Program-made: the position numbers and the translations under genes | Virus record (IMG/VR): IMGVR_UViG_3300013119_000806 | Span: 1-62,584 of that record | Origin: a virus | Reading direction: 5' to 3' (one strand) | Length of the DNA stretch: 62,584 nucleotides | The notes under the pieces: generated by a model | Seen by the model: only the letters and a program-made list of their open reading frames with translations | Told to the model about the DNA's origin: nothing | The model's database searches: none | In this document: positions 9,721 to 15,726 of the stretch, piece by piece | How the letters are laid out: each line of letters opens with the position of its first letter | How positions within the stretch are numbered: the stretch's first letter is position 1

Positions 9721-11775
9721 ATGGGTGGCTTAGCGGGACACATGAACCATCTCTATGATGATGCGGACCTAACATTCTCAAAGATGTATGAGATCATTTT
9801 GGCGGCATCAAATGGGAAGTTGACCGCGGAAGAGAAGGTTGACGGACAGAACCTCTTTGTCTCATACAATATCAAATCAGGGACGCCCGTGGCGGCACGC
9901 AACCTAACGAACATCAAAGAAGGCGGAATGGACGCTACGGCTTTGGCGACCAAGTTCGCTGGTCGTGGAGGTCTCACCGAAGCGTTTGTTGAAGCATTCG
10001 CCACCTTCGAGCGAGCCGTAGACGCTTTGTCCCCCGAGGTAAAGATCGGCATCTTCGGCAAGGACCTTGATTACTGGTACAATGCAGAAGTGATGAGCCC
10101 TTCCAACCCAAATGTGATCCACTATGACGAGAAGGTCTTGAAGATACATGACTCAGGGCACAAACGCAGAAACCCAGACACGATGCGCCCAGAGGACTTC
10201 GATTCCACAATTCCGCTCGGCATTCTAGATAGAAACCTTGAAGCCATGCAGGCTTCGGCGGCAAAGTCGGGCGATAGTTCATTTGTCCGTTCAGCAATAG
10301 TGAAGTTGAGGGCGATGTCTGACGATACAGCAGCCAAGCGAGCAATCAACCGAATCTCCTCTGCAATCAAGGTTGCCGGACTACAACCCGATGATACAGT
10401 AGCCTCCTACCTCGAAGCACGAGTACGACGCCACCCAGCCATAGCAGAACTCAATCTCCCCAAAGACAAAATCGAAGCCCTCACTCTCCGCACCCTCGGC
10501 TCCAAAGAAGCCCCCAATTTACGGCTCATAAAAAAAGGATTAGATGAGGAGCAATTAGAAGATGTAGTGGGAGTAGCATCCGCGTCAGCGAAGAGAGCCA
10601 TCTTGATAGATGCTATCAGACCTCTTGAAGAGGCGGTCCATGAGTTCGCAGTAGAGATGCTCGGAGCAGTCCAGAGCACCTTCGTCCTAAACCCCAAGAA
10701 GGAAGTTCAGCGCCTACGTGACACTTTGTCGGGAGCAGTCGCCGAAATAACCCAATTAGCGGATGACGGAGTGGTCAGCGGAAAAGAGATGGAAATGATG
10801 AGACATCAACTCCAAAAAATCAAAGACATAAAAGAGATCAATACCACCATGGAGGGGATCGTTTTTGACTATGAGGGGAAGGTTTATAAACTAACAGGTT
10901 CTTTTGCGCCCGTAAATCAGATCCTCGGCATCTTGACCTACTCTCGTGGAAAAAGAAACCAAGGGGTCCAAACGCAGACCGAGTCCCTCATCGACTCTAT
11001 GATCTCCTCCTTCCTTTTGAAAGAGAGCGCAGTTACAGGGGTAGTTACAGAGCAGGAAGGGCGACGAGTGGCTCTACTCCCTGGTGGCTTCAAGCCACCC
11101 CACGCAGGGCATTATTTGCTCGCTAAGTACCTCTCTAAGCAAAGCGACATCGACGAGGTCATCATCATCGTCGGCAAGAAAGACAGATGCGTAGAGGGAA
11201 CAGAGTTTTGCCTAACTGCCGAACACTCTAAATCTCTATGGGAACTCTACTTTGAGAGCGCAGGCGACAGCAACCTAAGTGTCCGCATCCAGGAGGGCAA
11301 AAGCCCAGTCGCAGATGTCTATGACTTCATCGCCGACCCGAGAATGTTCCATGATGGAGATACAGTTATTCTCGGCAAAGGAGAGAAGGACGCAGGGGAC
11401 ACTCGCTTCGACCGAGCGCAATCCTACGCAGAGCGCCATAACCCTGGTGTAAATGTCGAACAAGTCATCACACCAACCTTCGCTGGCGGAGTCTCGGGCA
11501 CCCAAATGCGCTCCTTCGTAGCCAACAACGACGAGACCTCATTCAAAGCCAACCTCCCAACTCACCTCACCGCTGAGGAACAACGCCAAGCGTGGAACAT
11601 CGTGTCCCCTTCGCCCCTCGAAGAGATCAGCGTAGCCAGCGGAGTTGAGGGCGCAGCAGGCGCTTGGGGACAACCCAACAACTACGACCCATATCACACA
11701 GCACGGAAATCCGGCAACAAAAAAAGAACATCTACAAGAAGACCTCAAAGCACCCGACCAAAAAGGGGGAGATAA
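9721..11775 (+). CDS. Two-domain nucleotidyltransferase: ligase-like (KxDG) plus HxGH adenylyltransferase, 684 aa
   Basis: The N-terminal part shows the landmarks of the covalent nucleotidyltransferase (DNA/RNA ligase) fold: motif I KVDG at K39-G42, RN shortly after, an EVM segment near 123, motif IV EGIVF near 377 and motif V YKLTG near 387. Between them is a long helical insert (about 145-360). The C-terminal part is a class I nucleotidylyltransferase: GGFKPPHAGH with HAGH at 461-464, the strand VIIIVGKKD, and SGTQMRSF near 592 in place of the usual ISGTxxR motif. Such domains make NAD, CoA or CDP-alcohols. Joining both chemistries suggests a reaction on NAD or on RNA ends, such as NAD salvage, capping or repair, but the substrate is unknown. 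The last 40 residues are basic. Confidence 0.72.
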   Translation: MGGLAGHMNHLYDDADLTFSKMYEIILAASNGKLTAEEKVDGQNLFVSYNIKSGTPVAARNLTNIKEGGMDATALATKFAGRGGLTEAFVEAFATFERAVDALSPEVKIGIFGKDLDYWYNAEVMSPSNPNVIHYDEKVLKIHDSGHKRRNPDTMRPEDFDSTIPLGILDRNLEAMQASAAKSGDSSFVRSAIVKLRAMSDDTAAKRAINRISSAIKVAGLQPDDTVASYLEARVRRHPAIAELNLPKDKIEALTLRTLGSKEAPNLRLIKKGLDEEQLEDVVGVASASAKRAILIDAIRPLEEAVHEFAVEMLGAVQSTFVLNPKKEVQRLRDTLSGAVAEITQLADDGVVSGKEMEMMRHQLQKIKDIKEINTTMEGIVFDYEGKVYKLTGSFAPVNQILGILTYSRGKRNQGVQTQTESLIDSMISSFLLKESAVTGVVTEQEGRRVALLPGGFKPPHAGHYLLAKYLSKQSDIDEVIIIVGKKDRCVEGTEFCLTAEHSKSLWELYFESAGDSNLSVRIQEGKSPVADVYDFIADPRMFHDGDTVILGKGEKDAGDTRFDRAQSYAERHNPGVNVEQVITPTFAGGVSGTQMRSFVANNDETSFKANLPTHLTAEEQRQAWNIVSPSPLEEISVASGVEGAAGAWGQPNNYDPYHTARKSGNKKRTSTRRPQSTRPKRGR

Positions 11776-11776
11776 C

Positions 11777-12544
11777 ATGACCATCAATAGAGACGAATTT
11801 TACAAAGAACTTATCCTGAGAGAACACATCAGGAAACGCATACTGAAAAAACACAATGAGCAAATGCTGGAAGAGCAGAAGTTCCGCAAAGTAGTGCGGA
11901 TGATGCTGAAAGAAGCGGGGAACGAAGAGACTCCTCACGCAAGCACAGGGATCAACGTCCTCGCTGATCTGTTGAAGAAGATCATCCCCGTTATTGAGAC
12001 TGATTACAAGATGTTGACGACGAGCCCAGAGCAACGGGAGTCATATAGAGCACACATCATTCAGGCGGCGAAGAACGCTATGGCTCCTGTTGATGTGGTT
12101 AGTGACATTCAGAGTGAGAGTTTTGAGTATACGATTGATGCTGATGTTTTACTTGAGAAGGTTACAATAGAAGTTGGAGATGAAGATGAGAACGAAGAAC
12201 TCGAAGGTGAGTTTATTGACATTGATGATGAGCCTGTTGACGAGGAAGGCGAATTGGGAATTGATGGTCAGAACGAAACAGGTAGAAACTTTGCTCTCGA
12301 AACTTTTAAGAAGATAGAGAGTCAGATTGTTGACGCTTATGCTAAATTGAGTGATGATGAAGATAATAAATTGTTTCATGATTATCTCTTGACTAACTTG
12401 TTGTTATACTTTGATAAGTTTGAAGATCAGTTAGCGGAGGAGTTGCCAGAGCAGAGTACTCCGGAGTATGAAGAAGAGATATCAGGAGAGGACGAGGGCG
12501 GCTTGGGCGATGACGGAGGAGACCTCGAAGACATGGAGCTATAA
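11777..12544 (+). CDS. Acidic hypothetical protein, 255 aa
   Basis: I use the ATG at 11777, behind AGGGGGAGATAAC. The first 45 residues are basic and helical (RKRILKKHNEQMLEEQKF). The middle and end are strongly acidic, with runs such as GDEDENEELEGEF and a C-terminal tail of Glu, Asp and Gly ending in EDMEL. This polarity resembles phage scaffold or prohead-core proteins, but no family is recognised. Base composition shifts to more AT after about 12050. It is the last gene before the tmRNA locus, and no terminator follows it. Confidence 0.55.
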   Translation: MTINRDEFYKELILREHIRKRILKKHNEQMLEEQKFRKVVRMMLKEAGNEETPHASTGINVLADLLKKIIPVIETDYKMLTTSPEQRESYRAHIIQAAKNAMAPVDVVSDIQSESFEYTIDADVLLEKVTIEVGDEDENEELEGEFIDIDDEPVDEEGELGIDGQNETGRNFALETFKKIESQIVDAYAKLSDDEDNKLFHDYLLTNLLLYFDKFEDQLAEELPEQSTPEYEEEISGEDEGGLGDDGGDLEDMEL

Positions 12545-12562: not shown

Positions 12563-12590
12563 TTTACATCTCCTTGAAGTGATGTATAAT
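12563..12590 (+). promoter_or_regulatory. Sigma70-type promoter for the tmRNA locus
   Basis: TTTACA (12563-12568), a 16-base spacer and a perfect TATAAT (12585-12590) predict a start near 12597. No gene lies between this and the tmRNA, so it would give a precursor with about 150 bases of leader carrying the tandem repeats. Confidence 0.8.
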
Positions 12591-12615: not shown

Positions 12616-12746
12616 AAACTATAGAGACTATAAATAACTAATAAGAGACTATAAATAACTAATAAGAGACTATAGATACTGATAAGAGACTATAAATAAC
12701 TAATAAGAGACTATAGATACTGATAAGAGACTATAGATACTGATAT
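12616..12746 (+). repeat. Six 20/21-bp tandem repeats immediately upstream of the tmRNA
   Basis: Units start AGACTATA at 12625, 12646, 12667, 12687, 12708 and 12728. Two versions alternate: AGACTATAAATAACTAATAA (units 1, 2 and 4) and AGACTATAGATACTGATAAG (units 3, 5 and 6). The first version holds TATAAATA, the T4 late promoter consensus. The array ends directly at the tmRNA 5' end (12747). The 600-base region 12545-13170 holds no protein gene. Confidence 0.9.
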
Positions 12747-13089
12747 GGGGATGAAATGGATTCGATTGGGAGGAAGAGATAGAGTAGTGCAGGGGTGAGG
12801 GAAGCGTGGCTCACTAAAAACGCTTAAAAAGATAATTGCAAATGACAATTTCAACATGGAGATGGCGGCGTAAAAACCTAACCACTCTTGAGGCGACAAC
12901 TGCCGATAAACAGAAAGTTGCTTGAGTAAGAGAACCCTCGGATGTCAATAAAAACTTCAGTGCTCAGAGGCAAAACAAAGCAAAGAAGTATAGTCAATGT
13001 TGTAATGACGATAAAATACAACTAACCCTGTGAACGATTGTTTTATTGATACTTTCAACACGACGGTTCGATGCCGTCCATCTCCACCA
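12747..13089 (+). ncRNA. ssrA: Phage-encoded tmRNA (ssrA), 343 nt
   Basis: tmRNA frees stalled ribosomes and tags the incomplete peptide for proteolysis. The 5' GGGGATG pairs with the 3' CATCTCC, followed by A and encoded CCA. The 5' end has the near-universal GGATTCGA (12758-12765), and the 3' T arm is GACGG-TTCGATG-CCGTC. The tag reading frame resumes at GCA (12838-12840) and runs to TAA (12871-12873), encoding ANDNFNMEMAA; the AND start and final AA match typical bacterial tags. The length and order (tRNA half, tag, pseudoknot region, tRNA half) fit a one-piece tmRNA. No smpB gene is seen in the window, so host SmpB is presumably used. A promoter and repeats precede it and a terminator follows. 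Confidence 0.95.
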
Positions 13090-13090
13090 A

Positions 13091-13119
13091 GGAGCCTCTT
13101 CGGGGGCTCCTTTTTCTTT
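13091..13119 (+). terminator. Rho-independent terminator after the tmRNA
   Basis: GGAGCC (13091-13096) pairs with GGCTCC (13105-13110) around a short TCTTCGGG-type loop and is followed by TTTTTCTTT. It begins one base after the tmRNA CCA. Confidence 0.95.
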
Positions 13120-13129
13120 GATGTCCAAC

Positions 13130-13136
13130 CTATTTA
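13130..13136 (+). promoter_or_regulatory. CTATTTA motif (candidate late promoter)
   Basis: CTATTTAT lies 34 bases before the PhoH ATG at 13171, right after the tmRNA terminator. It is followed by the ribosome site GCGAGGAAT. Confidence 0.65.
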
Positions 13137-13170
13137 TAGATATAGAGAACCCCTAACAGCGAGGAATAAA

Positions 13171-15726
13171 ATGAAGAAGACCTACCTCTTGGACACTAAT
13201 GTCTACATGACCGATGCTAATGCCCTCTTCAAATTCGAAGACAACGACATTATCATCCCCACGATCATCCTCGATGAGATCGACCGACACAAGAGCCGCC
13301 AAGATTCAGCAGGAGCCCACGCCCGCCAGTTCAATCGCATCCTCGACGGACTCCGCTCAGAAGGCTCCCTCTATACAGGGATCAGTCTCGGCGAGAACAA
13401 AGGCACAATCAAGGTAGTCGCCTGCGACAACGAGAACCACCTCCCAGCAGGTTTCGACAAAGGACACTCAGACAACAAGATGCTCGCCGCCGCCCTAAGC
13501 CTCACCACCGAGGTCATCATCGTCAGTCGAGACATCAACTTCCGTGTCAAGTGCGACGCAGTCGGCATTCCCTGCGAAGGCTACGAGAACGAGAAGGTCG
13601 TAGACAACGCAGACGACCTCTACTCAGGCGTAGCCGATGTCCTCGTCCCAAGAGAGCAGATAGACCTCATCTACTCAGGAGGCGAAGTCATCCTTTCGGT
13701 AACAAAAGAAAAAGACCTCTACATCAATCAATACCTCGTCCTAGGAGCCGAAGAAGCCCCAAGGCAGACTATCCTCGTCAGATACCAAGGTAAAGGACTC
13801 CCACTAAGACGCCTACATACCTCACGAGAAGAAGTATGGGGACTGAGAGCGAGAAACAAAGAGCAAGAGTTCGCAATAGACGCCTTGATGGACCCTAACA
13901 TTAAACTGGTGACCCTCGTAGGACGAGCAGGCTCAGGGAAGACCTTGATAGCCATTGCAAGCGGTATGGAACAAGTGATACAAGCAAGAAAGCACAAGAC
14001 ACCCTTCACTAAGTTGATGGTGTCGAAGCCAGTAGAAGCGGTCGGCAAGGATATTGGGTTTTTGCCCGGTCCGCAGCCACTTGACGCTAAGATACTCACC
14101 CCATTTGGATGGTCTACAATGGGCGAGATGAAAATTGGTTCTGAGGTGATAACAGAGGAAGGGATTTCCGCAGAAGTTTTAGGTGTATATGACCAAGGTG
14201 TGAAGGATATCTACCAAGTCAAGACCACCGATGGAAGGGTGACCGAATGTTGTGCGGACCATTTGTGGTTTACAACTACGAATGCCGAGAGAAGACGCCC
14301 AGGTAATAACGGAAAAGTAAGAACTCTATTAGAAATAAAAGACACCCTACATTCCACCGATAAGAAGTTTTATGGGAAATTAGAACATATTTTACCCAAG
14401 GTGTTACCTGTGGTTTATAAGACAGAGGGTATAACAACGAAGGACATCCCTCCCTATGTGATGGGTGCTTTATTGGGTGATGGCTCTTTTGGCAAGAGCG
14501 GTAAAGTGTGTATAGCCAGCATCGATGAGGAAATAGTGAATCGCATTAGACGAGAACTTGAACCCATGGGGTGTGAACTCTCAAGCCCAAAGTCAGGGAT
14601 AGTGTATTCTATAAATGGGAGACTCTATAATAATAAAACCGCCAAAAGAGTACAAGTCACAGGTGAGAGTGGAAGCGATATTTATCATTCGGTCGGTTTG
14701 GCATCTGCAAAACTAGGTGTTAGCAGCGGCACAATTGGTTATCGATGCAAGAATAATAGCACTATTGATGGTAAGCGGTATAATTTCTTAGAACCTTCAA
14801 CACGCTGGACGAACCCCGTCAGGGAACAACTCCATTTGCTTGGTTTGTTAGGGAAGACAGGACAAGACAAATTTGTACCAAGAAAATATATGACTGCCAG
14901 TATAGAGGATCGTCTGAATCTGTTACGGGGATTGATGGATACCGACGGAGGGGTCAATAAGAAGAAAGGTAGCGCCTGTTTTTGGAACACATCTTATCAT
15001 CTGGCGAGTTCTGTGTGTGAGTTGGTGAGATCACTTGGGGGGACAGCAAAGATATCAGAGCGCCACCCACGAAAATCCACCTTTTTGGATGGAAGAGAGA
15101 TAAAATCAAATAAAACTTGTTATGAGGTCAACCTCTCAATACAAGGGGGATATAACCCGTTCTACCTTGCCAGGAAAGCAAAATATTATAAATCTAAATA
15201 TTCACGGATGATTAAGATTGAAAGCATTGAGAAAATAGGGCTTAAGGAAGCGAGGTGTATTAGAATTGGTAGCACTCGACATCTTTATGTAACTGATGAT
15301 TTTATTGTCACGCATAATACCTTAGAAGAGAAACTAGGACCTTGGCTCGCTCCGATCAAGGATAACTTGGAAGCATTGATGGGCGACAAGGTGGCTATGG
15401 AGACCTATATGGAGCAAGGCGTCATCGAGATCGAGGCAATCACTTTTATCCGTGGTCGTTCTATCGCCAATGCCTATATGATCATCGATGAAGCTCAGAA
15501 CCTCAATGTCCACGAGATCAAGACAATCCTCACCCGAGTAGCTGACGGAACAAAGATCATCTTGACAGGAGACATCCAACAGATCGACAACTCGTATGTA
15601 GACGCAGAATCTAACGGGTTGACTTATGCTGTTGAGAAGTTCAAGTCATACGAAATCAGCGCCCACATCACCCTATCGAAGGGTGAGCGAAGCGAACTAG
15701 CAACGTTAGCGGCAGAGATCCTATGA
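13171..15726 (+). CDS. phoH: PIN-PhoH ATPase interrupted by an intein, 851 aa precursor
   Basis: The ATG at 13171 is used (MKKTYLLDTNVYM); the frame is open upstream into the tmRNA but has no ribosome site there. Residues 1-150 are a PIN nuclease domain: DTNVYM near the start, then DEIDRHK, DNKMLAAAL and VSRDINFRVKCD. The PhoH domain follows, with Walker A VGRAGSGKT near 251-259 and, after the intein, Walker B YMIIDEAQN and sensor LTGDIQQID. Without the intein (residues 301-716) the protein is 435 residues, normal for PhoH2-type PIN-PhoH proteins, which couple RNA unwinding to RNA cleavage. The splice joins GFLPG to TLEEKLGPW, a highly conserved PhoH segment. The exact role in phages is unknown. 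Confidence 0.92.
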   Translation: MKKTYLLDTNVYMTDANALFKFEDNDIIIPTIILDEIDRHKSRQDSAGAHARQFNRILDGLRSEGSLYTGISLGENKGTIKVVACDNENHLPAGFDKGHSDNKMLAAALSLTTEVIIVSRDINFRVKCDAVGIPCEGYENEKVVDNADDLYSGVADVLVPREQIDLIYSGGEVILSVTKEKDLYINQYLVLGAEEAPRQTILVRYQGKGLPLRRLHTSREEVWGLRARNKEQEFAIDALMDPNIKLVTLVGRAGSGKTLIAIASGMEQVIQARKHKTPFTKLMVSKPVEAVGKDIGFLPGPQPLDAKILTPFGWSTMGEMKIGSEVITEEGISAEVLGVYDQGVKDIYQVKTTDGRVTECCADHLWFTTTNAERRRPGNNGKVRTLLEIKDTLHSTDKKFYGKLEHILPKVLPVVYKTEGITTKDIPPYVMGALLGDGSFGKSGKVCIASIDEEIVNRIRRELEPMGCELSSPKSGIVYSINGRLYNNKTAKRVQVTGESGSDIYHSVGLASAKLGVSSGTIGYRCKNNSTIDGKRYNFLEPSTRWTNPVREQLHLLGLLGKTGQDKFVPRKYMTASIEDRLNLLRGLMDTDGGVNKKKGSACFWNTSYHLASSVCELVRSLGGTAKISERHPRKSTFLDGREIKSNKTCYEVNLSIQGGYNPFYLARKAKYYKSKYSRMIKIESIEKIGLKEARCIRIGSTRHLYVTDDFIVTHNTLEEKLGPWLAPIKDNLEALMGDKVAMETYMEQGVIEIEAITFIRGRSIANAYMIIDEAQNLNVHEIKTILTRVADGTKIILTGDIQQIDNSYVDAESNGLTYAVEKFKSYEISAHITLSKGERSELATLAAEIL
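14071..15318 (+). mobile_element. Intein with LAGLIDADG homing endonuclease in PhoH, 416 aa, class-3-like
   Basis: The intein runs from Pro (PQPLDAKILTPFGW) to Asn in FIVTHN, with Thr as the first residue of the C-extein. Residue 1 is not Cys or Ser. The three marks of class 3 inteins are present: Trp in DHLWFTT of block B, Cys in ARCIRIG of block F and Thr in VTHN of block G. A LAGLIDADG endonuclease is inserted, with MGALLGDGSFG and LLRGLMDTDGG as its two catalytic motifs, so the element can probably home. Base composition is more AT-rich than the flanking PhoH sequence. Splicing is inferred from motif integrity and the intact extein junction. Confidence 0.9.

Follow-up and report, generated by a model that had tools for sequence, protein, structure and literature searches.

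The 62,584-nt window analysed here, a fragment of 62.6 kb from a virus record (IMGVR_UViG_3300013119_000806), carries a genuine and complete one-piece tmRNA at positions 12747–13089 on the plus strand, and this phage RNA is probably functional, its likeliest role being ribosome rescue together with host factors. A tmRNA releases stalled ribosomes and adds to their incomplete products a tag that leads to their degradation. ARAGORN and the Rfam tmRNA model RF00023 give the same ends and the same tag, ANDNFNMEMAA*, which bears out the preliminary description of a complete phage tmRNA with its own tag. The covariance match to RF00023 extends from end to end across model positions 1–374, the full length of the model, with a score of 96.9 bits (E 1.4e-36) against a gathering score of 47 bits. 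The tRNA-like ends that had been described (GGGGATG and CATCTCC, plus CCA) are present, as is TGGATTCGA. Both halves of the acceptor stem lie at the ends of the gene, which is not circularly permuted, and an Rfam scan of the window gave no match to RF04321, the model of the two-piece tmRNA. The parts of the gene are as follows.

12747–13089, plus strand: one-piece tmRNA (ssrA) gene, 343 nt, with CCA encoded (ARAGORN, RF00023 and an 83% identical homologue, L097).
12747–12753, plus strand: 5' half of the acceptor stem, GGGGAUG (direct reading; 7 of 7 pairs kept in L097).
12779–12794, plus strand: 5' strand of helix P2, outer and inner parts (14 pairs with 13026–13046, all kept in L097).
12796–12825, plus strand: pseudoknot PK1 (UGAG/CUCA and AAGCGU/ACGCUU; identical in L097).
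12838–12873, plus strand: tag frame GCA...TAA, reading ANDNFNMEMAA*, with resume codon GCA (ARAGORN coding part 92–127).
13062–13078, plus strand: T arm GACGG-UUCGAUG-CCGUC, with a perfect 5-bp stem (RF00023 and pair check).
13079–13089, plus strand: 3' half of the acceptor stem, CAUCUCC, followed by the discriminator A and CCA (direct reading).

The third acceptor pair is a G-U wobble formed by G12749 and U13083, and a G3-U acceptor pair is the main identity element by which alanyl-tRNA synthetase directs alanine charging. The PK2–PK4 region is weakly aligned to RF00023, with posteriors of about 0.3–0.4 and several non-pairs; the number of pseudoknots differs among known tmRNAs.

A scan of viral contigs with a DNA pattern drawn from the 5' end of the tmRNA identified the homologue L097 (IMGVR_UViG_3300022902_001182, part of a 56-kb contig), whose tmRNA is 83% identical to that of the window at the DNA level and encodes the tag ANDNFNLEMAA, one residue away from the tag of the window. 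The two contigs share a gene order consisting of a 299-residue protein, the tmRNA, PhoH, a 221-residue protein, an exonuclease, and two glycosyltransferases, and the neighbouring proteins are 42–75% identical in amino acid sequence, against the 83% DNA identity of the tmRNA. All 36 scored tmRNA pairs are kept in both sequences, two of them by two-sided changes (the fifth acceptor pair, A-U to G-C, and one P2 pair, G-U versus C-G) and three by a one-sided change, and every pair of the tRNA-like domain and PK1 is kept in L097. When the partners were slid by 1–3 columns, 35–51% were paired. A shuffle control for covariation reached as high a value in 119 of 500 cases, which is not significant for two sequences, one close homologue having been found; the conclusion therefore leans on the RF00023 score, on an anatomy that is intact, and on synteny. 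Protein searches of viral contigs with PhoH, the 228-residue neighbour, and the exonuclease returned no relatives, and a nucleotide search of isolated phages returned no match. A chance match is excluded by the RF00023 score together with a syntenic homologue in which pairing is intact. Because L097 has the tmRNA in the same place among the same neighbours, with 83% identity and all 36 pairs kept, the window tmRNA is most likely a phage gene that has been inherited and is under selection.

The pattern of conservation also bears on a different reading, according to which the RNA would serve as a decoy or competitor that binds host SmpB or stalled ribosomes and dampens or redirects host trans-translation, with the tag mattering little. 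Expression in E. coli of a phage RNA consisting of the tRNA-like domain only, from DS6A, inhibits the endogenous tmRNA (PMC4131195, PMC11915505), and a 112-nt tmRNA-like piece with little beyond the tRNA-like domain occurs in the distantly related 484-kb phage LR756508. However, the tag frame, the resume region, and PK1 of the window tmRNA are intact and among its most conserved parts, and a decoy would not need them; this reading is unlikely.

The tag itself ends in a hydrophobic residue and Ala-Ala, as ordinary tags do. No ANDNFxxEMAA tag turned up when 84,980 bacterial and archaeal genomes were scanned with two patterns, the looser of which recovered ANDNYDYAMAA and its relatives, mainly in Desulfovibrionales, as well as an MAA tag in a Brevinematales genome. 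Among 49 distinct viral tags, a set skewed by the pattern used to search and with frames predicted by ARAGORN, LAA is the ending of 27 and MAA, the second commonest, of 8. MAA is an ordinary bacterial tag ending, contrary to the preliminary description, which had regarded it as departing from the usual; the altered recognition by ClpXP or SspB that had been proposed to follow from it would appear unsupported, because the ending is not unusual. The tag was also considered as a guide to the host, an assignment that was rejected: it matches none of the bacterial genomes scanned, and the tmRNA of Desulfovibrionales resembles that of the window in DNA sequence within conserved blocks alone. The tag could still be imagined to reprogram degradation, so that stalled proteins are sent to another protease, or spared, relative to those bearing the host tag. 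The exact tag was not found in any of the bacterial and archaeal genomes scanned and is nearly identical in two phages, which would suit this idea, but its hydrophobic and Ala-Ala end resembles that of ordinary tags, bacteria themselves have tags ending in MAA, and the idea is improbable.

The window encodes baseplate wedge proteins, PhoH, an exonuclease, a DNA primase, a Holliday junction resolvase, and an SbcC-like protein, along with five complete tRNAs and one cut by the contig end, and the virus is myovirus-like and of a little-known lineage. Within the tRNA cluster, the ORF at 384–731 has a Cys/His pattern that appears to resemble an HNH endonuclease. By baseplate protein, the nearest isolated phages are Microcystis phage Mel-JY01 and Flavobacterium immuto phages, at 32–34% identity, and none of these has a tmRNA over the cut-off. 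The distantly related 484-kb uncultured phage (LR756508) does carry a tmRNA: LR756508.1 has a longer one at 92434–92880, and its short tmRNA-like RNA (L145, 414804–414915), which is without a tag frame, resembles the inhibitory DS6A form. That the window gene is a passenger without present function, ssrA having been acquired when an ancestor lodged in this common integration site (PMC9004378, PMC11915505) excised imprecisely, is very improbable, as the gene is complete and not a 3' fragment, has its own terminator, lies in a record (a fragment) in which no tyrosine integrase (PF00589) was found, keeps its position and pairing in the diverged relative L097, and specifies a tag found in none of the 84,980 bacterial and archaeal genomes.

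The surroundings of the gene comprise the following features.

11645–12544, plus strand: upstream neighbour of 299 residues, conserved beside the tmRNA (54% amino acid identity to the L097 neighbour).
12563–12590, plus strand: sigma-70-like promoter TTTACA-16-TATAAT, 11 of 12 consensus positions (a promoter of similar quality lies in the same place in L097).
12623–12739, plus strand: between promoter and tmRNA, a tandem array built of 20/21-bp units and holding six TATA[AG]ATA motifs.
13089–13112, plus strand: intrinsic terminator with a 10-bp stem, a 4-nt loop, and a T run, the stem starting at the final A of CCA.
13171–15726, plus strand: downstream neighbour, a PIN-PhoH ATPase of 851 residues with an intein-like insertion (domain scan and L097 alignment).

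An ORF at 13030–15726 that overlaps the tmRNA is merely an open frame, since the alignment with L097 puts the start of PhoH at 13171. The intein-like insertion in PhoH is about 415 residues long, includes a LAGLIDADG endonuclease domain, and lies between FLPG and TLEEK; it starts with PQPLDAKILTP, not with the usual Cys or Ser, and ends with HN, and the PhoH of L097 is without it.

With its own promoter, about 150 bases upstream, and a terminator abutting the CCA, the tmRNA gene looks like a one-gene transcription unit. The array in between contains six copies of TATA[AG]ATA, against about 1.4 expected on the plus strand of the whole window. At the corresponding position (11302–11399) L097 carries an array whose sequence is unrelated, and it has an extra consensus promoter near the tmRNA 5' end; the array of the window had no match in other viral contigs. 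The possibility that the array acts as a structured RNA was rejected, as the leader of about 150 nt that contains it is scarcely more stably folded than shuffled sequences (z about −1). A series of T4-type late promoters (TATAAATA) was rejected as well: the rest of the window has hardly any copies of the motif, which so does not stand upstream of structural genes, and the absence of a recognisable late sigma factor among the window ORFs scanned counts against it. A unit of 20/21 bp corresponds to roughly two turns of the DNA helix and, as speculation, would suit a row of protein-binding sites. The far-reaching proposal that a phage tmRNA whose tag is missing from the bacterial genomes searched, driven through an unusual promoter- or operator-like array, replaces host trans-translation during infection and alters the fate of tagged proteins is unlikely.

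Ribosome rescue would be the likeliest role of the phage tmRNA, with host SmpB as its likely partner, since neither the window nor any of 28 other viral records with a tmRNA yielded an SmpB. The earlier observation that the window contains no smpB stands (PF01668 had no match in the record, and was detected in 10 of 14 control genomes), yet this is usual for such records (0 of 28, most of them possibly fragments), and the contig is itself a fragment. Some huge phages have been reported to encode SmpB (PMC7162821). In the proposed mechanism, the tmRNA would be transcribed alone, from the sigma-70-like promoter to the terminator abutting the CCA, and host RNase P would presumably remove the 5' leader of about 150 nt. 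Host alanyl-tRNA synthetase, recognising the G3-U pair, would then charge the RNA. In infected cells, host SmpB and EF-Tu would carry it to ribosomes that have stalled on broken or non-stop mRNA. Translation of ANDNFNMEMAA and the stop codon would free the ribosome, and the tagged fragment would pass to host tail-specific proteases such as ClpXP. The phage may thereby gain additional rescue capacity during mRNA cleavage. The structure and conservation of the gene are read directly from the sequence, from which transcription, charging, tagging, and benefit are predicted.

With this gene, a well-supported one-piece tmRNA is documented for a myovirus-like lineage that is little known. Along with the many other viral tmRNAs encountered, it supports the view that phages commonly bring their own rescue RNA and rely on host SmpB, and tags such as ANDNFNMEMAA allow a test of what benefit a private degradation tag brings to a phage.

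By 2014, phage tmRNAs had been listed in mycobacteriophages and Bacillus phage G (PMC4131195), and the statement that few phages are known to have a tmRNA has been overtaken: tmRNA has been found in 402 of 18,146 surveyed phage genomes (PMC9004378) and in huge phages (PMC7162821), and it was encountered here on more than 50 IMG/VR loci. In the literature covered by the searches, no experiments on phage-encoded tmRNA were found. Bacillus phage G and the mycobacteriophages (Bxz1 and relatives) likewise encode a tmRNA (PMC4131195); as far as known, their lineages are unrelated to that of the window. In Melnitz and other marine phages, a phage-encoded tmRNA lies close behind a promoter, as here; in contrast to the one-piece tmRNA of the window, the Melnitz type is a permuted two-piece RNA, and Melnitz has a glutamine riboswitch (PMC9004378), of which an Rfam scan found none in the window. 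Permuted two-piece tmRNAs (RF04321) were also seen in further viral contigs (L002, L005, and L007–L011), two of which measure 344 and 364 kb. Very short viral tmRNAs of 243–253 nt with the tag ANDNVALSLAA or ANDNVALTLAA occur in L026, L047, L105, and L119 and are probably without most pseudoknots, and unusually long predicted tags of 23–32 residues, some without an Ala-Ala end, occur in L003, L006, L020, L031, L060, L077, and L078 (ARAGORN frames).

L097 shares the locus, the neighbours, and the tmRNA with the window and differs in the upstream array, the extra promoter, and a PhoH without the insertion. Desulfovibrionales tmRNA (ANDNYDYAMAA) is likewise a one-piece RNA whose tag has the ANDN start and MAA end, with little DNA similarity outside conserved blocks, and is not evidence of the host. 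Bacterial one-piece tmRNAs (RF00023) have the same full model match, tag frame, PK1, and encoded CCA, and compared with them the window gene sits in a phage and is distinctive solely in its tag. The window tmRNA is ordinary in kind and belongs to an already documented kind, the phage tmRNA.
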